Shown: one piece after another, positions 12,531-39,720 of the stretch
Layout of the letters: every line of letters starts with the position of its first letter
How positions within the stretch are numbered: position 1 is the first letter of the stretch
From: Streptomyces sp. NBC_01298
GTDB taxonomy: Bacteria; Actinomycetota; Actinomycetes; Streptomycetales; Streptomycetaceae
NCBI RefSeq assembly: GCF_035978755.1
Contig: NZ_CP108414.1
Coordinates: forward strand, 1,240,001-1,304,000
DNA length: 64,000 bases
Direction: 5' to 3'
Position numbers and translations under genes: made by a program
The notes under the pieces: model-generated
What the model was told of the DNA's origin: nothing
Databases searched by the model: none
Seen by the model: the letters and a program-made list of their open reading frames with translations, nothing else

Positions 12531-13808
12531 ATGAGACCCACCCCGTCCCCGCCACCGTCCCCGAACCCGTCCCCGAACCCGTCCCCGATGCCGATGCCGA
12601 TGCCGATGCCGATGCCGACTCCGGCGGCAGCCTCCGGACCGGCGCCCGGACCGGCCAAGCTCCGTACGGCCGCCTTCTCCGCGGGCCACTCCTGCGTGGA
12701 CGTCTACCAGGGCGCCGTCGCCGCGCTCGTGCCCTTCCTCGTCTCCGAGCGCTCGTACGGCTACGCCGCCGCCTCCGGCATCGTGCTGGCCGCCTCGCTG
12801 CTCTCCTCCGTGGTCCAGCCGCTGTTCGGAGCGCTCACCGACCGGTGGCCGATGCCCTGGCTGATCCCGCTGGCCACCGCCGCCGCGGGACTGGGCGTGG
12901 CGCTGGTCGGACTCGACGCCGGCTACGCGGCCACCCTCGCCGCCGTCGCCCTGTCCGGGCTGGGCGTCGCCGCCTATCACCCGGCGGCCGCCCGGCTGGT
13001 CCGTACGGTGGGCGGGCCCGGGCACGGGGCGATGAGCTGGTTCGCGCTCGGCGGCAACATCGGCTTCGCGTGCGCGCCGCTGCTGGTCGTCGGCGCGCTC
13101 GCGCTGCCGGGCCCGGCGGGGTGGTGGCTGCTGGCCGCCCCGGCGGCCCTGGGCGTGTTCCTCAACCGGCCGCCGTCCGCGAAGCGTTCGGCCGCGAACC
13201 CGCGAGCGGCGATCCCGGCCCCGGCCCGGGGCCCCCGCGACGACTGGCGGGCCTTCCTGCGGCTGTCCCTGGTGGTCGTGGTGCGCTCGGTCGTCTTCAC
13301 CGGCCTGAGCACCTTCATCGGGCTGTACGTCCGGGAGCGCGGCGGTGGTGAAACCGCCGGCGCCGTGGCCCTGTTCACCCTCTTCGCCGGGAGCGCCGGC
13401 GGCACCCTCCTCGGAGGCCGGCTGGCCGCCCGCTGGGGGCGCGTCACCACCGTCCACCGCGCCTACGCGGCCGTGGTGCCGGCCGTCGCGGGCATCCTCT
13501 TCCTGCCGCTGCCGCTGGTGTACGTCTGCTCGGCGCTGGCCGCCACCGCCCTGTACGTGCCGTTCTCCCTCCAGGTCACCCTGGGCCAGGACTACTTGCC
13601 GAGCCGCATGGGCACGGCGAGCGGGGTCACCCTGGGCCTGACCGTCAGCATCGGGGGCCTCGCGAGCCCCGTGATCGGCGCGGCGGCCGACGCGGCCTCC
13701 CTGCGGACGGCCCTGCTCCCGCTGGCGGCGCTGCCGCTGCTGGCCTGGGCCCTGGCCCGGCGCCTGCCGGAGCCCGCGGAGCCGGAGCTCACTCCCGCTC
13801 GGGGGTGA
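12531..13808 (+). CDS. MFS transporter, fosmidomycin-resistance-like
   Basis: From the ATG at 12531 this is a 425-aa protein (a GTG at 12522 is an alternative). A proline-rich N-terminal tail with Pro-Asn-Pro-Ser and five Met-Pro repeats is followed by about twelve membrane segments, the first beginning AGHSCVDVYQGAVAALVPFLV. The conserved GALTDRW loop and this N-terminal pattern match the Fsr group of drug exporters. No good ribosome site precedes either start, and the true start may lie within or after the repeat. Divergent AraC control is likely. Confidence 0.87.
   Translation: MRPTPSPPPSPNPSPNPSPMPMPMPMPMPTPAAASGPAPGPAKLRTAAFSAGHSCVDVYQGAVAALVPFLVSERSYGYAAASGIVLAASLLSSVVQPLFGALTDRWPMPWLIPLATAAAGLGVALVGLDAGYAATLAAVALSGLGVAAYHPAAARLVRTVGGPGHGAMSWFALGGNIGFACAPLLVVGALALPGPAGWWLLAAPAALGVFLNRPPSAKRSAANPRAAIPAPARGPRDDWRAFLRLSLVVVVRSVVFTGLSTFIGLYVRERGGGETAGAVALFTLFAGSAGGTLLGGRLAARWGRVTTVHRAYAAVVPAVAGILFLPLPLVYVCSALAATALYVPFSLQVTLGQDYLPSRMGTASGVTLGLTVSIGGLASPVIGAAADAASLRTALLPLAALPLLAWALARRLPEPAEPELTPARG
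12561..12614 (+). repeat. Short tandem repeats in MFS 5' coding region
   Basis: Two copies of CCGAACCCGTCC are followed by five copies of CCGATG. They encode Pro-Asn-Pro-Ser and Met-Pro repeats before the first membrane helix. Copy number is likely variable through replication slippage, and because the units are multiples of three the frame is kept. Confidence 0.85.
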
Positions 13809-14397
13809 GGGCGGCCTCCCGCGGCCGGGAGCGGTGGGCCCGCCAGGCGGCCAGGGCCTGCGCGCGGGTGCCCTCGGGATGGCCGGCGTGCCAGTCGCGG
13901 AGGAACCGGTTCAGCTCGAACTGGGCCCCGATCTCCCGGGGTTCGGCCGCCGCCGCCCGGGTGGCGTGCCAGTGGGCGACCGCCTCGGCGAGGGTGTGTC
14001 CCGCGCCCTGGGCGACGTAATCCCGCATGAAGGCGTCGAAGTGGAAGCCGGGCCCGATCTCCCGGAGGAAGTAGGCCCGCAGCACCTGGCCGCACCGCTG
14101 CCCCGGCGGGATCACGCTGGCCCCGTCCACGGGCGCCGCCAGCTGCCGGCCCGCACCACGGACGGGCCGGCCGCCGGACCGGGCCGGAGCCGGGTCCGCG
14201 GCCGGGGCCGGCGCCGGAAACCCGTCCAGCGCGGCGGCGATCCGCGCCGTGACCGCCGCCTTCCCGCCTCCGGACGGGAGGCCCATCGCCCGGGCCAGGG
14301 CGCTGAGTTCGGCCAGCGTCCAGTACCAGCGGGCCAGCTCCGCCCCGCTCAGTTCCGGGCTCGGAGCAGGCCGCACTTCACCGTCATTCGTACGCAC
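13789..14397 (-). CDS. DUF6434/SAP-like domain protein
   Basis: GTG start, 202 aa. The N-terminal part (LSALARAMGLPSGGGKAAVTARI) looks like a SAP-type helix-extension-helix. The C-terminal part contains IPPGQRCGQVLR, PGFHFDAFMRDYV and HWHATR, which match the DUF6434 family as I remember it. The SAP resemblance suggests nucleic-acid binding, but no function is established. Its end overlaps the end of the convergent MFS gene by 20 bases. Confidence 0.8.
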   Translation of the reverse strand: MRTNDGEVRPAPSPELSGAELARWYWTLAELSALARAMGLPSGGGKAAVTARIAAALDGFPAPAPAADPAPARSGGRPVRGAGRQLAAPVDGASVIPPGQRCGQVLRAYFLREIGPGFHFDAFMRDYVAQGAGHTLAEAVAHWHATRAAAAEPREIGAQFELNRFLRDWHAGHPEGTRAQALAAWRAHRSRPREAALTPERE

Positions 14398-26399: not shown

Positions 26400-28265
26400 T
26401 CAGCCCAGGTGTTCCGCGAGGAACCGCTCCACGGCCGCGTAGTAGGCCTGCCGGTTCGCGGGCCGGGACAGCCCGTGCCCCTCGTCCGGGAACAGCAGGT
26501 ACTCGTACGGGAGTTGCTTGGCCTCCAGCGCCGCGACGATCTGCTCCGCCTCCGCCCGGGGCACGCGGACGTCGTTGGCGCCCTGGACGATCAGGAGCGG
26601 GATGCGGATCTCGTCGACCCGGGACAGCGGTGAGCGTTCCCACAGCATGGCGCGCTCCGTTTCCGGGTCCCCCACCTGGGCGTGCATGAACGAGCGCAGC
26701 ACGGTGCGGTAGGGCGCCCCGGCCGCGAGCAGCGTCAGCAGGTTCGACGGACCGCAGAGGTCGATCGCGCAGGTGAACACCTCGGGGGTGAAGGCCGCGC
26801 CGACCAGCGCGGCGTACCCCCCGTACGAGCAGCCCATGATCGCGATCCGGGCGGGGTCGATGCCGCCGTCCGCGACGAGGTGCGCGACCGCGTCGAGCAG
26901 ATCGGTCTGCATCGCGGCACCCCACTGCTTGGCGCCCAGGTTGCGGAAGTGCTTGCCGTAGCCCGTCGAACCGCGGAAGTTGACCTGGACGCAGGCGTAG
27001 CCGCGGTTGGCCAGGAGCTGCGCCTCCTCGTCGAACGCGAAGGTGTGGCGGGCCCAGGGCCCGCCGTGCACGTTCACCACCGCGGGCAGGCCCGTGCGTT
27101 CGGCGCCGGGCGGCCAGGTGACGTAGCCGTGGACGGTGACCCCGTCGCGCGCGGAGAACGCGAAGGGCTCCATCCGGGCCAGCGTGTACGCCTCGAGCTC
27201 CCGCTGGTGGCTGAAGAGGTGGCGCAGCGTCCCGGCCGGCCGGTCGTAGACGTAGTAGAGGACGGGGCCGGCTCCGGTCACCACCGAGACCGTCCACAGC
27301 CGGTCGCCGCGGTCGGTGCGGTCCACGTAGACCTCGCCGTCGACCGACAGGAGGGCGAGCTCGCCGCGGATCCGGCCGATGTCCTTGCCGAACTCCTCGT
27401 CCAGGAAGACCCATTCGTCGCGGTCCTTCGCGAACAGCGCCGCTTGCGGCCTGCGGGTCACCGGGTCGAACTCGACCTGTTTGACGTCGTACACCGGGTC
27501 ATGCGCGAGCAGCGTCCGCCGGCCGGTGGCGAGTTCGACGGCGAACAGGCGGCCGGCGTTGGCCCCGATGGAGGACAGGAGGTGGCAGGTGGCGCCGTCG
27601 CGGGAGAAGCCGAGCACGCGCGTCCCCATGGCGTCGTCGTAGGGCACGTCGAGCCAGGGCGTGGCACCGTCCGGTCCGCCCGGAGCCCCCGAATCCTCCG
27701 GCGGGTCGAGGAACACGGACAGGCCGCCGTCCGGCTTCACCACCGTGCCGCCGCGCACCCGCAGGTCGGTGTCCACGATCCAGCTCAGGTACCCGGGGTT
27801 CTCCGCGACCTTGGTGAGCCGGTCCGTCAGCAGGTCCAGGGCGTAGACGTCGTGCAGCGCGGGCCGGTCCTTGTTCAGTCCGATCAGCAGGGTCGTCGGG
27901 TGCCACCGGTTGTGCGCCAGCACCCGTGCCTGGACTCCGTCGAAGGGGGTGGCGCAGCGCTCCCGGCCGGTGATCAGGTCGACGAGGTGGACCCGCCAGC
28001 TCTCGTCGCCGTCCCGGTCGCGCAGGTAGAACAGGGTGCGGTCGTCGTGGCACAGGCCGTACGTGCGGATGCCGCGGCCCCGGTCGTGCGTGACGGGCCT
28101 CGCCTCCCCGGGCCGGTCCACGGGCGCCGTCCACACGTTCAGGACGCCGTCGTCCGGGGCCAGGTAGACGAGACGGGTCCCGTCCGGGGAGATCTCGGGC
28201 ACGAGGTACGACGGGTTGCCGAACAGGACGGAGTGCGGGATCAGCGGTACGGCCGGCTTGGTCAC
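26400..28265 (-). CDS. S9 family peptidase (acylaminoacyl/prolyl oligopeptidase type)
   Basis: GTG start with GGGAAGGGAA upstream; 621 aa. The N-terminal beta-propeller spans about residues 10-350, and the C-terminal alpha/beta-hydrolase domain holds the triad: Ser in GCSYGGYAA, Asp in QGANDVRVP, His in FPDEGHGLS. There is no signal peptide. Such oligopeptidases act on short peptides that fit through the propeller, so it is a good candidate for trimming a RiPP leader remnant or a resistance hydrolase. Its start overlaps the FAD gene stop by four bases, placing it in the precursor-SAM-PqqD-FAD operon. Confidence 0.92.
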   Translation of the reverse strand: MTKPAVPLIPHSVLFGNPSYLVPEISPDGTRLVYLAPDDGVLNVWTAPVDRPGEARPVTHDRGRGIRTYGLCHDDRTLFYLRDRDGDESWRVHLVDLITGRERCATPFDGVQARVLAHNRWHPTTLLIGLNKDRPALHDVYALDLLTDRLTKVAENPGYLSWIVDTDLRVRGGTVVKPDGGLSVFLDPPEDSGAPGGPDGATPWLDVPYDDAMGTRVLGFSRDGATCHLLSSIGANAGRLFAVELATGRRTLLAHDPVYDVKQVEFDPVTRRPQAALFAKDRDEWVFLDEEFGKDIGRIRGELALLSVDGEVYVDRTDRGDRLWTVSVVTGAGPVLYYVYDRPAGTLRHLFSHQRELEAYTLARMEPFAFSARDGVTVHGYVTWPPGAERTGLPAVVNVHGGPWARHTFAFDEEAQLLANRGYACVQVNFRGSTGYGKHFRNLGAKQWGAAMQTDLLDAVAHLVADGGIDPARIAIMGCSYGGYAALVGAAFTPEVFTCAIDLCGPSNLLTLLAAGAPYRTVLRSFMHAQVGDPETERAMLWERSPLSRVDEIRIPLLIVQGANDVRVPRAEAEQIVAALEAKQLPYEYLLFPDEGHGLSRPANRQAYYAAVERFLAEHLG

Positions 28266-29773
28266 GGTTCCCTTCCCGGGTCGGGTGGTTGGACGCCGCG
28301 CTCCGAGAACCACCAGTCGCGGAGTTCGGGGAACTGCGCGACCGCCTCGTCGGTGTCGAGCGGCGGGGCCGCGGGGCGGCCGGCGGAGGGTGCGGGGAGG
28401 GCCGGCCCGGAAGGGACCGGCGTCCGGGCGGGGACCGGTTCCTGGGCGGGGAACGGCGTCTGGACGGGGACCAGCGTCTGGGCGCGGAACAGCCGGGTCA
28501 TCAGCACCGGGCTGCCGAGCACCGCTCGGGACACCTTGGCCCGCATCCGCTGCCCGGCGGCGGACAGGGGAGCCGACCCGGGGCCTGACCCGGGACCTGC
28601 CGCTGGGCCTGCTCCTGAGCCTTCGCCTGAGCCGGAGCCCTCCGCGACGGCCCGCGCCCGGTCCTGTTCGGTCGCCATCCGCCAGGATTCCGCGGCCACT
28701 GCGGCCATCGCGGCCTGGATCGCGGGCAGCGCGCGGGGCCGGGCGCCGCGTTCGCTCAGCTCCCGGTCCAGCCGCAGCGCGCCGAGCAGTGCGACGGACA
28801 TCCCGTGCGAGTAGACGGGGTTCACGGCCGTCAGCGCGTCGCCGACGACCAGGAAGCCCTCGGGCAGCGGCAGCCGCTCGAAGAACCTCCGGCGGTTCGC
28901 GGTGGCACGGAACGGTCTTACTCCGCCGAGGGGTTCGGCCGCCGCCAGTAGTTCCGCCGCGAGGGGCGAGCGCAGCGAGCGGGCGCAGTCCGTGAATCCC
29001 GGCTCGTCCGACGGCGGTCTGGCCGCGCGCGTGCCGGTCAGCGTGAAGATCCACCGGCCGTCCTCGATGGGGAACAGCGTGGCTCCGTACCCCGGGCGGC
29101 CGCGCTCGGGCCGCGGGTGCACCATGACCGCCGGGAGGTCGGCGGCGAGGGCGGGGGGCGCCCGGTAGATCCGGGTGGAGTACGCCAGTCCCGGGTCGAG
29201 CACCTCCTCCTCGACTCCGGGTCCGCCGATCGCGGTCAGCCAGCGTCCGGCCCGCGAACGCCGGCCCGTCGCGTCCACCACCAGGTCGGCGCCGAGCGTC
29301 TCGCGGGAGCCGTCCTCGTGCGCGACCAGGACACCGGTCACGCGGGTCGCGTCCCCCGCGAGTCCCAGGACCCGGGTGCGCTCCCGTACGGTGACCGCCC
29401 CGTCGGCCAGGGCCCGCTGCCGGATGACGTCGTCCATCAGCCAGCGGCTGCACGAGACCATGAAGGCCCCGGTCTCGTGGCGGCGGAACCAGCCGTCCGC
29501 GCTCAGGATCAGCGCGCCGTCCGGCAGGCCCCTGCGGTGCGCTCCCCGGGCGAGGAGCGCCTCCAGCGTTCCGGGGAGCAGCGTGTCCAGGGCCTCGGCG
29601 CCGGCGGTCACCAGGACGTGGCTGTGGTACGCCTGCGGCAGCTCCGGCCGGACCCCCGGCCCGTCCGGGTACCGGCCGCCCTCGACGACGGTGACCTCGT
29701 CGGCGTGCCGGGAGAGCACCTTGGCCACCAGCACCCCCGCGAAGCCTCCGCCGAGGACGACGGCCCTGGTCAT
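28262..29773 (-). CDS. FAD-dependent oxidoreductase (tryptophan-halogenase-like fold)
   Basis: A 503-aa protein. The N-terminal LGGGFAGVLVAK binds the FAD dinucleotide, and GDALTAVNPVYSHGMSVALLGA is the second flavin motif of the PHBH/geranylgeranyl-reductase/halogenase superfamily. The WxWxIP motif of true flavin halogenases is not seen (the segment reads DGRWIFTLTGT), so hydroxylation or dehydrogenation is as likely as halogenation. Residues about 390-470 are a low-complexity Gly/Ser/Pro/Val linker. It overlaps the PqqD-like gene by four bases and is presumably a tailoring enzyme of the same peptide. Confidence 0.87.
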   Translation of the reverse strand: MTRAVVLGGGFAGVLVAKVLSRHADEVTVVEGGRYPDGPGVRPELPQAYHSHVLVTAGAEALDTLLPGTLEALLARGAHRRGLPDGALILSADGWFRRHETGAFMVSCSRWLMDDVIRQRALADGAVTVRERTRVLGLAGDATRVTGVLVAHEDGSRETLGADLVVDATGRRSRAGRWLTAIGGPGVEEEVLDPGLAYSTRIYRAPPALAADLPAVMVHPRPERGRPGYGATLFPIEDGRWIFTLTGTRAARPPSDEPGFTDCARSLRSPLAAELLAAAEPLGGVRPFRATANRRRFFERLPLPEGFLVVGDALTAVNPVYSHGMSVALLGALRLDRELSERGARPRALPAIQAAMAAVAAESWRMATEQDRARAVAEGSGSGEGSGAGPAAGPGSGPGSAPLSAAGQRMRAKVSRAVLGSPVLMTRLFRAQTLVPVQTPFPAQEPVPARTPVPSGPALPAPSAGRPAAPPLDTDEAVAQFPELRDWWFSERGVQPPDPGREP

Positions 29774-30102
29774 GACCGTGCAGCCGGCTCGCTCCGTACG
29801 GCCTGCGTTCCGGCTTCCTTCTGCTCGGCGTCCGTCTCCTCGATGAGGTCGGCTTCGATCATGGAGGTGATGAAGGCGTCCACCTCCGCGCGGATGCGGG
29901 CCGTCATCACCGGGTTGTGCCCCGCGAACAGCAGGGACAGGTTCGTGATGACCGTCTCCCGGTCCCCGTCGCTCTCCACGAGCGCCCAGATCTGGGCGGC
30001 CGTCGCGTTCAGGGTGCGGAAGTCGCCGGACTCGCTGTGGTACAGCGAGATGCCGTCCCCGGTCTCCTGCCAGATCACCGCGTCACTGATGTGCAGGGAC
30101 AT
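29770..30102 (-). CDS. PqqD-like peptide chaperone (RiPP recognition element)
   Basis: A 110-aa protein of the PqqD/RRE fold: an N-terminal beta-hairpin (VIWQETGDGISLYHSESGDF), then the helical part beginning TLNATAAQIWALVE. PqqD-like domains bind the leader of a precursor and present it to a radical SAM maturase. Here it is encoded directly after one, with a 20-base overlap, so it most likely pairs with the enzyme at 30083-31582 and the precursor at 31654-31920. Confidence 0.88.
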   Translation of the reverse strand: MSLHISDAVIWQETGDGISLYHSESGDFRTLNATAAQIWALVESDGDRETVITNLSLLFAGHNPVMTARIRAEVDAFITSMIEADLIEETDAEQKEAGTQAVRSEPAARS

Positions 30103-31582
30103 CTCCCAGCCTCCTGTTCACCGGCATGATCGGAATCAGTTCGCCCACCTTGATCGCGGGCACGGGCGCCGGCGGGCGGACGTAGGTCTTCCACTGCTCG
30201 TGGGCCTCGTGCACCTCCCCGGTGGCTACCAGCCGGGGAATGGTCATCTCGGTGCCGTCCAGGGCGAGTTCGGCGCGGGTCACGCCGGTCTCCTGCCACA
30301 GCTGCGTGGTCACTCCGTGCCGCAGGATCCGGCACAGGTGGCGGCTGTTGCGCCGCAGGTCGCCGGACTCCGACATGTGCGCGGCCCGGCAGCCGCCGCC
30401 GCAGTTCGCCTTGATGTAGCACTTCTCGCAGTCGGCGTGGAACTCCCCGCCGTACACGGTGCTCCGGCGCATCGAGGTCAGGACCGGGCTGGCGAAGATC
30501 TCCGACAGCCGCTGCTTCCTGATGTTTCCGGCGAACTCCCCCTTGCCCGTGACGAGTTTGCACGGGTAGACGTCGCCGAGGGAGTTGACGTAGATCTCGT
30601 GCCCGCCCATGCCGCAGTTGCCCTTGACCGAGCACGCGGTGACCGGCCTCGGGCCGTCCGGCTTGAGCTTGCCGGCGACCGGCGAGGTCCAGACGAGCTG
30701 CTGCACGTCCAGGTGGTCCTGCCACCCGAAGTCGTAGGTGTCGTCCGCGCCCCTGCCCAGGTCGTTGTGGTTCATCAGGCGGACGCTGTGGATCTCGATC
30801 CCGTCGAGGAAGGAGGCGAAGTCCTCCAGCTCGTGGATGTTGTCCGAGGTGACGATGTGGTTGATGGCCGGCGCCACCCCGGCCTCGTTGAGGAGCTGGA
30901 TCGCCCGGTGGGTCTTGGCGAACGCGCCCTTGCCGCGGGTGCGGTCGTGGGTCTCGGCCGTGCCTCCGTCGAGGCTCACGGTGACGGCGTCGAAGAGCTC
31001 GGCGAACCGCCGGGCCTTCTCCGCGGTCCGGATCATCGTCGCGTTGGTGATGATGTTGGCCTTCAGGCCGCTGTTCTTGGCGTGCTCGACGACCTGGAAG
31101 AGATCCTTGCGGAGCATCGGCTCGCCGCCGGTGAAGATGATGGTCCCGGCGCCGAAGTCGGCGATCTGCGAGACCAGGTCCAGGGACTCGGCGGTGTCGA
31201 GCTCGCCCGGCAGGCACTTCTCCGAGGAGGCGTAGCAGTACGGGCAGCGCAGGTTGCAGCCGTCGGTGATGGCGTAGTACGCGACGCCCAGGGGCGGTTC
31301 GCTCAGCCTGACCTTGGGTTTGTTGCCGTTGAAGTACACGATCCAGCTCAGGATGAGCTTGGCGAGGACGCGTTCCGTCTCGTCGTTCTGCTCCAGCCCC
31401 GGCTGCTCCCCGCGGGCCCGGGCGGCCGCCAGGGTCTCGAGGACCCGAAACTCACGTCCGGAGAGGACGCACCGGGCGGCCACCTCCGGGTTGACCACGA
31501 GGTGGTCCTCGCCGTGCACGAAGTACGTCAGGTCGTTGGGCACCTCGAACAACGACAGGTTCCGAACCAGGTTTCCGCGCAT
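30083..31582 (-). CDS. Radical SAM/SPASM peptide maturase
   Basis: The ATG at 31582 follows GAGGAGGCGGG; 499 aa. Residues 1-95 are a divergent N-terminal domain that could itself be an RRE. The radical SAM CNLRCPYC motif has Cys109, Cys113 and Cys116 for the [4Fe-4S] cluster. A Cys-rich SPASM domain follows (CSVKGNCGMGG, YPCKL, then CEKCYIKANCGGGC and a late HLC), able to hold two auxiliary clusters. SPASM enzymes make sactionine thioethers, C-C or ether crosslinks, or epimerise residues. The Cys-Ala-Cys tail of the adjacent precursor favours thioether chemistry. It lies 71 bases after the precursor gene. Confidence 0.93.
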   Translation of the reverse strand: MRGNLVRNLSLFEVPNDLTYFVHGEDHLVVNPEVAARCVLSGREFRVLETLAAARARGEQPGLEQNDETERVLAKLILSWIVYFNGNKPKVRLSEPPLGVAYYAITDGCNLRCPYCYASSEKCLPGELDTAESLDLVSQIADFGAGTIIFTGGEPMLRKDLFQVVEHAKNSGLKANIITNATMIRTAEKARRFAELFDAVTVSLDGGTAETHDRTRGKGAFAKTHRAIQLLNEAGVAPAINHIVTSDNIHELEDFASFLDGIEIHSVRLMNHNDLGRGADDTYDFGWQDHLDVQQLVWTSPVAGKLKPDGPRPVTACSVKGNCGMGGHEIYVNSLGDVYPCKLVTGKGEFAGNIRKQRLSEIFASPVLTSMRRSTVYGGEFHADCEKCYIKANCGGGCRAAHMSESGDLRRNSRHLCRILRHGVTTQLWQETGVTRAELALDGTEMTIPRLVATGEVHEAHEQWKTYVRPPAPVPAIKVGELIPIMPVNRRLGDVPAHQ

Positions 31583-31653
31583 CCCGCCTCCTCTCTGGAC
31601 TGGCACAGGCGCGGCCCGACGCGAACCGCCGCCGGACCCCGCCTGTGGAACGG

Positions 31654-31920
31654 TCAGTTCTCGGCCTGGCCCGATCCCGACCAGAGGCCGCAGGCACACA
31701 GCATCGCGGCGTCGAAGCCCTCCTTCGTGGCCTCCGGGGAGGTCCAGTCCTGGGAGTGCGCCACCACGTCGGGCAGGATCGCCGCGAGGCGGGTCTTCGT
31801 CGAGATGAGGACCTTGGTCTCCTCGGGGGTCAGGCTGGCGTAGAACTCTTCGAGGGCGGGCGCCATCGTGCCGCCGATGACACCGGCCGCACGCAGGGAC
31901 TCCAGGGCGTTGAAGGACAT
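31654..31920 (-). CDS. Putative RiPP precursor peptide with Cys-Ala-Cys core
   Basis: The ATG follows AAAGGTGG at a good distance; 88 aa. Residues 1-58 form an acidic, helical leader with LTPEETKVLIS. The tail is AAMLCACGLWSGSGQAEN, with the only two cysteines (75 and 77) two residues apart and followed by Gly-Leu-Trp. There is no signal peptide or membrane segment. It is immediately upstream of the radical SAM/SPASM gene and a PqqD-like chaperone. A 63-residue homologue of its leader occurs inside the HTH gene at 20018-20467. The cleavage site and modifications are inference. Confidence 0.75.
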   Translation of the reverse strand: MSFNALESLRAAGVIGGTMAPALEEFYASLTPEETKVLISTKTRLAAILPDVVAHSQDWTSPEATKEGFDAAMLCACGLWSGSGQAEN

Positions 31921-31987
31921 GCTTCCACCTTTCGCTGTCGCGTTCGATCGGGGACGCAACCGAGACTGCGCGCGGCGGACCCGTGAA

Positions 31988-33232: not shown

Positions 33233-35281
<2,049 letters not shown>

Positions 35282-35344: not shown

Positions 35345-35362
35345 GTGGCAAGAATTTGCCAA
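35345..35362. promoter_or_regulatory. Operator-like inverted repeat GTGGCAA-GAAT-TTGCCAA
   Basis: Arms of six to seven bases with a four-base spacer, matching the TTGGCAA-N4-TTGCCAA sites upstream of the XRE-TPR gene 2.9 kb away. It lies in the 147-bp region between the divergent ligase (start 35281) and MFS (start 35429) genes, so it could control both. Confidence 0.7.
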
Positions 35363-35428: not shown

Positions 35429-36628
35429 ATGACCGTCACTGCACCCGTACTGCCGCCCCCACCGGGCTTGAGCCGTGGCACCGCGCTCGCACTGGCGGTC
35501 GCCGGCGCCCTCACGGTCTCGAACATCTACTTCCCGCAGCCGCTGCTCGACGCCATCGCCTCCGGCCTCGGCATCAGCGGCTCGGCGGCGGGCCTGGTCG
35601 CCACCGCGGCGCAGGTCGGCTACGCCCTCGGCATCAGCCTCGTCGTCCCCCTCGCGGACACGGCCCGGCTGCGCCGGCTCACGAGCGTGCTGCTCCTGCT
35701 GACCACGGCGGGGCTGCTGGTCGCCGCCTTCTCCCCCGACCTGGTCACGCTCACGGTGGCCACGGTCGCGCTGTCCACCACGACGGTGCTGCCGCAGGTG
35801 ATCATGCCGACCGCGGCGTCGATGGCCGGGCCGGGCCGCAGCGGCAGCGCCCTGGGCCTGATCGGCATCGGACTGACGCTCGGCTCCACGCTCTCGCGCA
35901 CCCTCTCCGGCGCGGTCGTGGGCCTCAGCGGCGACTGGCGCACGGCCTACCTGGTGGCGGCGGCGCTCACCGGCGGCCTGCTCCTGTTCCTGCCCAGGCT
36001 GTTGCCCGAACGGGCCCCCGGGGGCCCGGCGTTGCCCTACCGCGCCTTGATCGCCTCCATGCCGCGGCTGGTCGCGGCCCATCCCGAGCTGCGCCTGTCG
36101 GCGTACCTGGGGGCGACGGTGTTCGCCGCCTTCAGCGCGTTCTGGGCGACCCTGGCCTTCCACCTGGCCGGCCCGCCGTTCGGTCTGGGGGTCGCCTGGG
36201 CGGGCCTGTTCGGGCTGTTCAGCCTGCCGGCCGCGCTGTTGTCGTACTCTGCGGGCCGGCTCAGCGACCAGCACCGGCCGCGCTACGTCAACAACCTGGC
36301 CTTCGCGTGCGTGAGCGCCGCCTTCCTGCTCCTCGGCACGCTCGGCGACCGGTCCCTGATCGCACTGGTCGTGGGCTGCAACCTGCTGGTGTACGGCGGC
36401 AGCTGCTGGCAGATCGCCAACCAGGTCCGCGTCTTCCGGCTGGCGGCGGGAATCCGCGCCCGCCTCAACACGGTGTTCATGCTGGCCAGTTTCGCCGGCG
36501 GCTCGGTGGGCTCGTTCGCGGGGGCCGCGCTCTACCAGGCCTACGGATGGCAGGGCATGATCCTGGGCTGCGGAGGCTTCCTGGCCCTGGCCGCCCTGGG
36601 CATGGTGGCGGGACGCCGGATGGACTGA
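35429..36628 (+). CDS. MFS transporter
   Basis: The ATG at 35429 has CGGAGG eight bases before it; 399 aa with about twelve hydrophobic helices. An N-terminal GALTVSNIYFPQPLLDAIA and the PLADTARLRR loop resemble the YnfM/arabinose-efflux-like group of MFS exporters. The shared operator region with the divergent ligase gene suggests export of, or resistance to, the ligase product or uptake/export of the neighbouring peptide. The substrate is unknown. A strong terminator follows. Confidence 0.9.
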   Translation: MTVTAPVLPPPPGLSRGTALALAVAGALTVSNIYFPQPLLDAIASGLGISGSAAGLVATAAQVGYALGISLVVPLADTARLRRLTSVLLLLTTAGLLVAAFSPDLVTLTVATVALSTTTVLPQVIMPTAASMAGPGRSGSALGLIGIGLTLGSTLSRTLSGAVVGLSGDWRTAYLVAAALTGGLLLFLPRLLPERAPGGPALPYRALIASMPRLVAAHPELRLSAYLGATVFAAFSAFWATLAFHLAGPPFGLGVAWAGLFGLFSLPAALLSYSAGRLSDQHRPRYVNNLAFACVSAAFLLLGTLGDRSLIALVVGCNLLVYGGSCWQIANQVRVFRLAAGIRARLNTVFMLASFAGGSVGSFAGAALYQAYGWQGMILGCGGFLALAALGMVAGRRMD

Positions 36629-36817: not shown

Positions 36818-38047
36818 TCAGGCCCTGGGACCGGCTGCCCCGCGCGCCTGCGCGAGGGCTTCGGCCAGCGTCCGCCAGATGTCCGCGGCCAGGTCGATGC
36901 TGGCCGCCGCCTGGGCCTCCTCCGCGAGTTCGCGCATCCGCGCCAGGCCCTCGTCCTCCCGGCCCTCGACGATGAGGAGCCGACTGTCCAGCATGTCCAG
37001 CCGGACCCGGTCGCGGTACGTGGTCTTCGCGTCGGCGCCGCGCACCCGGTCCAGCAGCGTGCGGGCGTCGGCGAAACGCCCGCCCAGGAAGGCGATTTCC
37101 GCCTTCAGGGCCGTCACCTCGTGGCCCAGGGCGGGGATGTCCACGTAGACCAGGCTCGCCTCGGCCTGCTCGGCGTACTGCTCCGCCCGGTCCAGTTCCG
37201 GCGGCGCCTTGCGGACGTGGAGCCGGGCGGCGGCGACCCTGAGCCTGACCCACAGCAACAGGTTCTCCGCGCTGCTGAAGCGCTCCAGCGCCTGCGCCAA
37301 GAGGCCCTGGGCGCTGTCCAGGTCGCCCTGGCGGACCCGCACGGCGGCGGCGGTCCACAGCGACTCGGCCCACAGGGTGTCGGTGCGGCCCTGCGTGAGG
37401 GCGGTCAGCTCGTCGGCGTGCGCGCGGGCCTCCCCGAGCCGGCCCGCCTCGGTCTCCACGGAGACCAGCGCGAGCAGGCTGGCGGCCACGTCGGCCACCG
37501 GGAGCCCGTTCTCCCGGGCCAGCCGGTACGCCGCCGCGCCGGCCTCGCCGGCGGGGCCGATCTCGCCGCAGGCCCGCAGGCAGCGCGCCAACTGGGTCTG
37601 GCCCCGGGCGCTCAGCTCGGGCAGGCCCAGCTCGTCGCCGAGCCGGACGAGCTCCAGCAGCAGCTCCCGCTCCTTGGCGTGCTCCCCCCTGCGGCGCCGC
37701 CACTGGGCGACCAGCCACAGACCCTGCCAGCGCAGCAGCGGGTCCTGGTCCCCCTCCCCGCCCAGGGCGCTCTCGACCGCCACGGCGGTCTCGTCGGTGC
37801 CCGCGGACGCGGCGACGGCGAGGGCCCGGGCCAACGAGTTGGCGGCGGCCTCTTCGAACGCGGAGGCGGGTACGCCGAGTTGCGCGGCCAGATGCTCTAC
37901 GGCCCGCGCGGTGGGCTGCCGGGCGCCGGACTCCAGCCGGGACAGATAGCCGGTGGACATGCCCTCGCCGGCAAGGGCGGCCTGCGAGAGCCCTCGCTCG
38001 GTGCGGAGCTGCTTGAGCCGGCGCCCGAACAGCGGTTGTTCCAACAC
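36818..38047 (-). CDS. XRE HTH-TPR regulator (RRNPP-like architecture)
   Basis: The GTG start at 38047 gives 409 aa beginning VLEQPLFGRRLKQLR. The XRE helix-turn-helix is at about residues 8-62 (ERGLSQAALAGEGMSTGYLS, then RLESGARQPT). The remaining 340 residues are helical TPR-type repeats (ELLLELVRLGDELGLPELSA, ESLWTAAAVRVRQGDLDSAQ and similar). HTH plus TPR is the build of peptide-sensing regulators such as PlcR, NprR and Rgg. It is divergent from the DIGWP peptide gene, with two operator-like sites between. It probably regulates itself, the peptide and the ligase/MFS promoters. Confidence 0.88.
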   Translation of the reverse strand: MLEQPLFGRRLKQLRTERGLSQAALAGEGMSTGYLSRLESGARQPTARAVEHLAAQLGVPASAFEEAAANSLARALAVAASAGTDETAVAVESALGGEGDQDPLLRWQGLWLVAQWRRRRGEHAKERELLLELVRLGDELGLPELSARGQTQLARCLRACGEIGPAGEAGAAAYRLARENGLPVADVAASLLALVSVETEAGRLGEARAHADELTALTQGRTDTLWAESLWTAAAVRVRQGDLDSAQGLLAQALERFSSAENLLLWVRLRVAAARLHVRKAPPELDRAEQYAEQAEASLVYVDIPALGHEVTALKAEIAFLGGRFADARTLLDRVRGADAKTTYRDRVRLDMLDSRLLIVEGREDEGLARMRELAEEAQAAASIDLAADIWRTLAEALAQARGAAGPRA

Positions 38048-38173
38048 GTGATCAACCCCATGGATTCGGAGGCGGTGACAGGGGTGGCAGGGCCGGACGA
38101 CTTCCGTGACATGCGCGTACCCACGGAAACACTCCGCCCCAGGCGGACCAGAGGCTAGCCCGGAAGCCCACAG

Positions 38174-38193
38174 TTGGGCAAATTCTTGCCCAA
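38174..38193. promoter_or_regulatory. Operator-like inverted repeat TTGGGCAA-ATTC-TTGCCCAA
   Basis: A perfect 8-4-8 inverted repeat in the divergent region, 127 bases upstream of the XRE start and 167 before the peptide start. It has the same core and spacer as the site at 35345. Confidence 0.75.
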
Positions 38194-38241
38194 AGCGCGC
38201 GAGCGCCAAACAGGGATCTCGAACTTCTGGCACTACAGGCC

Positions 38242-38270
38242 TTGCCAATTGGTTGGCAATACCTTGCCAA
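38242..38270. promoter_or_regulatory. Overlapping operator repeats TTGCCAA-TTGG-TTGGCAA-TACC-TTGCCAA
   Basis: Three 7-bp half-sites in alternating orientation. The right pair, TTGGCAATACCTTGCCAA, is a perfect 7-4-7 inverted repeat about 90 bases before the secreted peptide gene. It is the best copy of the motif. Confidence 0.78.
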
Positions 38271-38359
38271 AGTGCTGGGACCTGCACTAGCTTTCTCGGC
38301 AACGCGGTGGTCACGACGATTCCGCGGATCTCGCCTTCCCATCTCGCTCAGGAGTTCCA

Positions 38360-38584
38360 GTGCGTTCCTTCCTCCGTGCCACCCGTGTCCGCGTCGCAGC
38401 GGGCGCCATCGCCTTCGTCGCCCTGTTCGCCGTCGTCGGTGCGTCCGGAAGCCCCGCCGGGGACATCGGCTGGCCGGTTCCGCCGAAGGGCGCCACGGTC
38501 GCCGGGGACATCGGCTGGCCCTCGCCGGTGGCTCCCGCCACCGCCGCCCGCACCGACATCGGCTGGCCGGTCAAGGGCGCGTAA
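38360..38584 (+). CDS. Secreted small peptide with three DIGWP repeats
   Basis: GTG start with AGGAG five bases upstream; 74 aa, TAA stop. Residues 1-32 form a Sec signal peptide: basic MRSFLRATRVR, a hydrophobic core AAGAIAFVALFAVVGASG and a likely cleavage after Ala-Ser-Gly or nearby. The mature part of about 43 residues contains Asp-Ile-Gly-Trp-Pro three times, with Val-Pro-Pro, Ser-Pro-Val and Val-Lys-Gly after each copy. It has no Cys. It could be a peptide pheromone precursor read by the adjacent XRE-TPR regulator, or a multi-core substrate for the ATP-grasp ligases. I know no named family. Confidence 0.8.
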   Translation: MRSFLRATRVRVAAGAIAFVALFAVVGASGSPAGDIGWPVPPKGATVAGDIGWPSPVAPATAARTDIGWPVKGA

Positions 38585-38681
38585 CGCCGACGGCGCCCGG
38601 CCGGCACCCCGGCCCCTCCTTCTCCACCCCCACACAGAGAGTGATCGACCCGGCGGCTTCGACTCGCCCCCGGCCCGCCCG

Positions 38682-39720
38682 GTCAAGACCGCCGTAATCG
38701 TGGACGGGTACTCGACCGGCACGCTCCTCCCCCCGGCCTCCCCCCGGCCTTCGCCCGTCTCGGCCTCGACGTGGTGCACGTGTACAGCTCCGCGGAACCG
38801 ATGGCGACGATGCTCCCGCCGGATCCGGACGCCTACCGGGACCAGTTCCACTGCCCCGACGAGGCCGCCTTCGAAGCAACGGTCTCGGCGCTCGCGGAGC
38901 TCGGCCCGGTGGCCGTCCTGGCGGGCCAGGAGCCCGGCGTGCCCCTCGCCGACGCGCTCAGCGAGGCCCTGCGCCGCGCCGGGGTGAGGTGCGCCGACCA
39001 GTTCAAGAGCGGCGATCCGCAGGCCGTCGCCGACTGGGCCGAGCGTTCGGCCGGGTACCCCGTAATCGTCAAGCCGCTCAGCTCGGCCTCCACCGACCGC
39101 GTCTACCGGTGCCACGACGCCGCCGAGGTCCTGACGGCCGCCCGCGCGGTGCTCGGCTCCACCGACATCTTCGAGCGCGGGAACACCGAAGCCCTGGCGC
39201 AGTCCTTCCTGGAGGGCACCGAGTACATCGTGGACACGGTCAGCGTGGCGGGCGAGCGGTACGTGTGCGGGGTGTGGAAGTACGAGAAGGAAATCCTGCC
39301 GAACGGCAAGAACATCTACGACCTCGACGTCCTGCTCGCCCCGGACGCCGCACCGGTGCCCGCGCTGATCGCCTACGTCGACACGGTGCTGGAAGCCCTC
39401 GGCATCCAGCACGGCCCTGGCCTACGCACGGCCCGAGGAGTTCGCCCGCCGGTACGCCGGCCAGGTCTACTCTCCCCGCACCGCGGCCGCCGTCCACAGC
39501 ACCCGCACCACCTTCGGCGGACTGGTCGCATCGGTGGACCAGGAGGCGGTGGACCGGATCGAGGCCCTGCCGGGCGTCCACCTCGTGGGCGTCAAACTCG
39601 GTCCGGGCAAGCGCCTGACCCCGACCGCCGACCTGCTGACCAGCCCGCTGCGCATCTTCATGACGGCCGACGACATGGAGCGGATCCGCACGGACCGGGA
39701 CACCATCCAGACCCCACGAC
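38682..39720 (+). pseudogene. Decayed paralogue of the ATP-grasp dipeptide ligase
   Basis: Frame-corrected, this matches the ligase at 33233-35281 over its ATP-grasp part (KTAVIVDGYSTGTLLPP, LAGQEPGVPLADALSEAL, YPVIVKPLSSAST, ALAYARPEEFARRYAGQ, LTPTADLLTSP). An exact tandem duplication of TCCCCCCGGCC near 38731-38752 shifts the frame. At about 39413-39417 roughly 40 codons are missing, including the VEIGARLSGG metal-binding segment, with a second shift. No in-frame stop closes it before the phospholipase gene. No clean start codon is seen. Catalysis should be lost. Confidence 0.75.

Follow-up and report, generated by a model that had tools for sequence, protein, structure and literature searches.

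Relatives of a regulator-peptide gene pair in Streptomyces suggest an undescribed bacterial signalling system

A regulator gene lies divergent from a repeat-bearing peptide gene

The 64,000-nt stretch of Streptomyces sp. NBC_01298 DNA analyzed here (contig NZ_CP108414.1, positions 1,240,001 to 1,304,000; hereafter the window) carries on its minus strand a gene for a regulator with an XRE-type helix-turn-helix (HTH) and tetratricopeptide repeats (TPR) and, divergently on the plus strand, a gene for a 74-residue peptide precursor, with half-site repeats in the intergenic stretch (Table 1). Related pairs found elsewhere in the genus hint at a signalling system not yet described in bacteria, in which the regulator probably senses the neighboring, putatively exported peptide. 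An earlier note on this DNA had described a 409-residue HTH-TPR protein, a divergent 74-residue protein with three DIGWP copies and operator-like repeats between them, and our analysis bore out each of these. The regulator's open reading frame (ORF) spans 36818-38314 and a GTG at 38047 yields the 409 residues. The surrounding CACGTGATCAACCCCA is common to the window and four other divergent loci (L002, L031, L034 and L048, where L and G numbers are our labels for the loci and genomes compared). The peptide ORF likewise starts with GTG, with AGGAG immediately 5' of it. Its product has an N-terminus that is Sec-like as judged by hydropathy only, and no Pfam match at E 0.001; the gene contains a 21-nt DNA repeat in two identical copies and a third that is 76% alike.

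Pfam families HTH_31, HTH_3 and HTH_19 match the regulator above their cut-offs, and TPR_MalT (E 1.2e-9) and TPR_12 match it below theirs. An AlphaFold2 model (mean pLDDT 92.7) predicts an HTH and helical repeats, and its structure matches include PlcR, Rap and NprR along with TPR proteins of other functions. Together these results point to the N-terminal XRE-type HTH and C-terminal TPR superhelix that are expected of an RRNPP receptor. The RRNPP systems of Bacillota include PlcR-PapR, NprR-NprX, Rap-Phr, ComR-ComS and Rgg-SHP; the window's regulator resembles PlcR, NprR, ComR and Rgg in its XRE-type HTH. Sequence similarity to solved receptors was seen only across the HTH and the helices that immediately follow, which sets it apart from the RRNPP receptors, and profile matches to ComR and PlcR span only positions ~3-109 of 410.

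Table 1. Coordinates of the regulator-peptide pair, its putative control sites and adjoining genes in the window.
Feature	Position	Strand	Basis
ATP-grasp ligase gene, broken	34004..35281	-	34-C tract 34615-34648 with frame change, another near 34067
Operator GTGGCAAGAATTTGCCAA between divergent ATP-grasp (-) and MFS (+) genes	35345..35362		genome pattern scan
MFS transporter, open frame, probable target	35429..36628	+	Pfam MFS_1
XRE-HTH and TPR regulator, 409 aa, proposed intracellular peptide receptor	36818..38047	-	Pfam, AlphaFold2 model, structure matches
Second inverted repeat TGGGCAAATTCTTGCCCA, nearer regulator gene	38175..38192		present in five divergent loci
Operator, three half-sites TTGCCAA-N4-TTGGCAA-N4-TTGCCAA	38242..38270	+	common to five divergent loci
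Putative peptide-gene promoter: TTGCCA, 18 nt, TAGCTT	38264..38293	+	sequence; putative function
74-aa precursor: Sec-like N-terminus, then three DIGWP copies	38360..38584	+	ORF, family members
DIGWP copy 1	38462..38476	+	sequence
DIGWP copy 2	38507..38521	+	sequence
DIGWP copy 3	38555..38569	+	sequence
ATP-grasp ligase remnant 3' of peptide	38661..39713	+	three pieces, different frames

Regulator and peptide genes are paired across genomes

A search profile built from 8 regulators was run against 295 genomes of the genus and, at E 1e-70 or better, found relatives in 49 of them (at least 60 rows); more regulators may exist because the scan scored the top 6 candidates per genome. We examined 56 regulators besides the window's, excluding an identical second copy in G199 and two partial genes of G001. 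Among the rows L032, L048 and G001:C529 represent a single contig, and L005 is nearly identical to L004. A first detector collected ORFs of 35-300 residues with a hydrophobic N-terminus that either end in [IVL][GDEN]W[PDG] or hold at least two copies of [IV][GDE]WP. It returned 37 ORFs in 1,833,767 bases, 30 of them within 3.1 kb of a regulator (4 of these 30 from loci picked by peptide) and none between 3.1 and 14 kb; three others lie 14.3, 18.7 and 29.2 kb from their regulator and four in loci without such a regulator. A second detector, free of the signal filter, accepted 15-170 residues with [IVL][GDE]WP either terminal or close to the C-terminus, or else present in at least two copies, and found 43 ORFs within 2 kb of regulators (300,547 bases) against 10 elsewhere (1,533,220 bases). 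Five of those 10 belong to the peptide family, one (L042) to a related family, and four are chance-like. With the motif exactly C-terminal the counts are 34 near regulators against 3 elsewhere, the latter being multi-copy family members (L039, L083, L086).

Counted by regulator, 42/56 have a second-detector ORF within 2 kb, as do 39/53 in loci picked by the regulator alone. The earlier note had proposed checking whether regulator and peptide occur together in further genomes, and they do: as in RRNPP systems, the receptor gene is accompanied by a small peptide gene in one genome after another. The peptide gene is probably cognate to the neighboring receptor. The window's own 9.7-Mb genome encodes two further regulators at E 1e-70, one partnered by a signal-bearing peptide ending in IEWP and the other by a short ORF ending in RIDWP. 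In annotated plasmid records a family HTH gene adjoins the peptide (L002, L004, L005) or lies ~6 kb away (L003); the neighbors in one record include ATP-grasp, non-ribosomal peptide synthetase and ketosynthase genes, and in the rest an SARP gene and others. A scan of 246 genomes of the class at E 1e-50 matched six, five of the window's genus and one, G476, of another family. There, two tandem regulators of the family occupy G476:C3:4575290-4580529, and a search requiring a hydrophobic N-terminus found no convincing peptide within ~1.5 kb of them.

The peptides form a Trp-Pro motif family with several forms

A protein search returned 22 proteins, the window's own included, all with 2 to 5 IGWP copies and, judged by eye, a hydrophobic N-terminus before them. 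Compared across these 22 precursors the linkers diverge and the motif is kept, and the near-invariant columns are the motif and a few others; the precursor of L037 holds 13 IGWP copies. Scanning the 295 genomes for the peptide gave matches in 20, which on reading comprised 6 with IGWP repeats (the window's own included), 1 with DIDWP, 11 with another W-motif (DVGWGN, VIGWD, DIGWD, DIGW-x, DIGWG, DIAWP/DISWV, EDNGWPV) and 2 that are chance-like. The idea in the earlier note that DIGWP or a slightly longer peptide is the signal needed refinement: DIGWP is one variant beside IDWP, IEWP and VEWP in a wider [IV][GDE]WP family, and some relatives are without a signal-like N-terminus.

We distinguish three forms. 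Form A, as in the window, is signal-bearing and multi-copy. Form B is signal-bearing and single-copy, ends exactly in I[DE]WP and adjoins more distant regulators (L114, L117-L129); because single-copy members end exactly in WP, the mature ligand probably ends in Trp-Pro-COOH. Form C comprises short ORFs whose N-terminus is not signal-like and whose products end in or close to DDDIGWPKR, DDDIDWP, GEIEWP, ENVEWP and similar, with the motif mostly ~260-450 bp and in some cases 0.9-2.5 kb from the regulator start. Forms A and C occur together with the same motif in L035, L036 and L081 with L134, and with different motifs in L083, L086 and L091. In the window, the pattern used for leaderless ORFs detected no form C ORF.

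These leaderless forms bear on a different explanation, in which the peptide stays in the cell and, produced close to the regulator, tunes it as a cytosolic ligand or antagonist, and the exported forms have another purpose. This explanation fits the many regulators that have a leaderless same-motif ORF nearby, in some regions together with a signal-bearing counterpart, while the signal-like N-terminus of the window's peptide and, by eye, of its IGWP relatives speaks against it, and we consider it improbable. The members found with the first detector add no independent support for export because they were chosen by a hydropathy filter.

Leaderless WP-motif ORFs by the regulator gene were located in L003 (2585, minus strand), L004 (12050), L035 (6766), L036 (9263), L081 (7398, minus strand), L083 (9574), L085 (3541), L093 (10484), L106 (7433), L107 (9633) and L109 (9564), mostly divergent from the regulator gene. 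In L091, a signal-bearing precursor with repeated GDPGLP lies behind an operator (13570-13995, minus strand), and the regulator of that region has a divergent short ORF ending in DDDLDWP.

Peptide motif broadly follows regulator clade

In a tree of 63 regulators, with motif labels as known when the tree was made, the window protein groups with L002 (100/97), and these two belong to a five-member set of IGWP regulators (100/100). Regulators with VEWP, with multi-copy IDWP and with single-copy IDWP partners mostly form separate clades and IGWP occurs in more than one place, which suggests that peptide motif broadly follows regulator clade. Covariation of receptor residues with motif type was discarded as confounded by phylogeny.

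A shared operator precedes many of the peptide genes

The three-half-site operator between the divergent genes is common to all five divergent loci, with one base different in L048. In the window, TTGGCAAN4TTGCCAA with up to 3 mismatches has 5 matches against 0.42 expected from shuffles. At no more than 1 mismatch, it occurs in three places in the whole genome (38253-38270, 35345-35362 and G000:C1:4624642), the last ~108 bp 5' of a paralogous peptide ending in YEIEWP, and the reversed pattern occurs nowhere in that genome at the same setting. Between the ATP-grasp and MFS (major facilitator superfamily) genes, corresponding sites were found in L002 (7082), L031 (7005) and L034 (12496). The operator is present in 17/20 genomes with the closest regulators against 0/20 without a regulator at E 1e-70, where the reversed control gives 7/20 and 3/20. 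It precedes many peptide genes, three of them separated from their regulator by 14-29 kb, and the looser TTGSCAAN4TTGSCAA has 49 sites in the loci examined. Scored by their upstream match, 23 of 38 peptides reach at least 11 of 12, 2 reach 10, 11 reach 9 and 2 reach 8. Among windows drawn at random from these loci, with true sites left in, 2% attain 11 and 5% attain 9, and the four peptides of other families score 7-8. These data suggest that the regulator binds TTGGCAA-N4-TTGCCAA.

The third half-site coincides with the putative -35 element (TTGCCA) of the peptide gene, and TAGCTT is kept in four aligned loci and reads TAACTT in L034. The second repeat, TGGGCAAATTCTTGCCCA, which lies nearer the regulator and is common to the five divergent loci as GGGCAAAT..TTGCCC, has a spacing one base shorter in L034. 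A pattern for this second repeat, GGGCAAATNTTGCCC, with a spacing one base short of the window's copy, showed no enrichment in the window, with 2 matches against 2.65 expected.

The repeated site 5' of the peptide gene suggests that the regulator controls it, which would also hold if the exported peptides had an unrelated function, for example as antimicrobial or surface peptides, and were regulated but not sensed by the HTH-TPR neighbor. Since motif and regulator clade co-vary, linkers diverge while the motif stays, and the receptor model resembles pheromone receptors, we regard such a function as very improbable.

By eye, the operator also precedes other genes, among them one for an adenylation-domain-like protein (L132) and carrier-protein-like genes (L089, L090). 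Tracing it in G205 revealed a precursor with GDPGLP repeats.

A peptide-pheromone circuit is the best reading

The best reading of the pair is an RRNPP-like peptide-sensing family in Streptomyces, and we hold it very likely, from sequence, model and analogy, that the pair is a peptide-pheromone circuit working like PlcR-PapR or NprR-NprX. The RRNPP-like interpretation of the earlier note is supported by the pairing, the shared operator and a receptor model resembling RRNPP receptors. In such a circuit the precursor encoded by the small gene would be exported via Sec, and extracellular proteolysis would release a short DIGWP-bearing peptide, probably ending at the proline because I[DE]WP forms the very C-terminus of single-copy relatives. 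An oligopeptide ATP-binding cassette (ABC) importer would bring the peptide back to the cytoplasm (PF00496 binding proteins are encoded in the window's genome, with no established link to the DIGWP peptide), where it would occupy the groove of the regulator's TPR domain. Bound to TTGGCAA-N4-TTGCCAA half-sites, the regulator would cover the -35 region of the peptide promoter and also occupy the divergent ATP-grasp/MFS promoter, and peptide binding would alter its occupancy, leading to autoregulation and density-dependent control of neighboring genes. The central half-site belongs to two overlapping palindromes; if the transcript starts near 38300, as we assume, the centre of one lies near -49 and the other spans the -35, so that a peptide-driven change in occupancy could switch between activation and repression.

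Several observations weigh against this proposal. The leaderless relatives fit poorly with a simple loop of export and re-import, and 14/56 regulators have no motif ORF within 2 kb, some of them with an ORF farther off or in a form that the detector misses. The detector motif was fixed after part of the same data had been seen, for which reason the far flanks serve as the control. At no more than 1 mismatch there is no operator site 5' of many distant-clade peptides (including L094, L097, L099, L101, L104, L112, L118, L120-L122 and L124-L129), 13/38 peptides score just 8 or 9 of 12 upstream, and in G024, G059 and G276 the sites lie on contigs other than the regulator's. The match of the regulator model to PlcR is loose (TMq 0.42, rmsd 13), and TPR proteins of other functions match it equally or better. 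The first helices carry conserved polar and aromatic residues, an indirect hint of peptide binding, but conserved residues of any kind favor these helices too (32/151 against 9/122), and receptor columns failed to separate motif types cleanly. Finally, the IGWP regulator of L036 and the IDWP regulator of L081 are neighbors in the tree (91/50).

For the genus as a whole we think it likely that Streptomyces has its own large class of gene-encoded peptide pheromones that bear an [IV][GDE]WP signature, placed C-terminally in single-copy forms, and are recognized by XRE-TPR receptors acting on a TTGGCAA-N4-TTGCCAA operator. Its specificities (IDWP, IEWP, VEWP, IGWP, GDPGLP) would arise via motif change and copy multiplication, with exported and leaderless versions in some regions and possibly a second receptor class for similar signals.

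Comparison with known systems

The gamma-butyrolactones of Streptomyces are enzyme-made small molecules read by a TetR-type receptor, whereas the signal in the window would be a gene-encoded peptide. Like them, it would be a density signal that controls specialised metabolism; gamma-butyrolactone signalling is named in PMC4748050. According to PMC10075063, Actinomycetota signals are typically enzyme-made small molecules, and the RRNPP search described there covered only Firmicutes and viruses. The pair shares with RRNPP systems a predicted TPR receptor fold and a small peptide gene adjoining the receptor gene; unlike those systems, the Streptomyces peptides are Trp-Pro peptides, often multi-copy, several loci lie near specialised-metabolite genes and some relatives are leaderless. 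In the XRE-DUF397 pairs of Streptomyces (PMC10364602), too, a small gene accompanies that of an XRE regulator. It encodes a DUF397 protein, and as the window's peptide has no Pfam match at E 0.001, the window's pair is not of this type.

A search of the open-licence PMC literature, with preprints outside its range, gave no paper for DIGWP, and the matching papers listed first for IDWP were unrelated by title. No Streptomyces peptide-regulator system of this kind appeared among the matches listed, which does not imply absence from print. If our proposal is true, a family of linear gene-encoded peptide pheromones, adjoining specialised-metabolite genes in several loci, could provide cheap synthetic inducers of silent clusters, and the operator offers a genome-wide route to targets.

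Neighboring genes and a modified-peptide alternative

The regulator-peptide pair lies within an ATP-grasp/MFS cluster in L002, L031 and L034, and over residues 1-397 of 398 the window's MFS protein shares 84% identity with its counterpart in L002. The window's two ATP-grasp genes are broken, through evolution or sequencing error, and the regulator, peptide and MFS frames are open. The remnant 3' of the peptide covers parts of residues 4-417 of an 866-residue homologue. The run of 34 C at 34615-34648 could be a genuine slippage tract or stem from faulty sequencing.

An ATP-grasp gene or remnant lies directly 3' of the peptide in the window, L002, L031, L033, L034 and L048, and a prolyl oligopeptidase is annotated in L002, to which L031 and L034 have strong homologues; those of the window (26403-29858) and L099 are weaker. 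This arrangement would suit a ribosomally synthesized and post-translationally modified peptide (RiPP) precursor whose DIGWP cores are ligated or modified by the adjacent ATP-grasp enzymes, with the regulator merely that of the cluster. The precursor of an ATP-grasp RiPP would always be found beside its modifying enzyme, but no homologue of the L002 ATP-grasp proteins (E 1e-8) was found in the stretches examined of L003, L004, L035, L036, L083, L096, L099, L100, L112, L114, L117-L122 and L126-L128, all of which carry peptide and regulator, and this weakens the RiPP explanation. Single-copy members moreover retain just the C-terminal motif, and in the window the peptide frame is open while both ATP-grasp genes are broken. 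Overall we judge a RiPP precursor unlikely.

ATP-grasp-like genes also occur near otherwise distant regulators (L090, L093, L097, L098, L101, L104, L113, L123-L125, L129); they may mark a shared type of target cluster. Elsewhere in the window, 30083-31923 holds a radical SAM/SPASM gene and, 5' of it, an 89-residue ORF that ends in a Cys-containing stretch, a RiPP-like pair.

Related W-motif peptides lie beside other regulators

Exported-looking W-motif peptides (DVGWGN, DIGW-x, DIGWD, DIAWP/DISWV) in L038 (8240-8515), L042 (7788-8189, minus strand), L025 and L013 (minus strand) are divergent from proteins of one common type. In L038 and L042 these proteins have only a weak Pfam match, to DUF7436 and below cut-off, and in L025 the C-terminus is LuxR-like by eye. 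DIGW-type exported peptides beside other regulators point to a possible second receptor class. Among minus-strand peptide matches, L013, L020 and L025 hold W-motif peptides, and correct-strand reading of L018 and L024 gave none. VIGWD peptides lie beside a 329-residue protein in L040 (11675-11872; TrmB-like and GerE matches) and L041 (8228-8426), and L047 (8921-9161) has a DIGWG peptide with no such regulator adjoining. An EDNGWPV peptide lies beside two GerE proteins in L043 (8058-8390), and other EDNGWPV loci are L020-L022.
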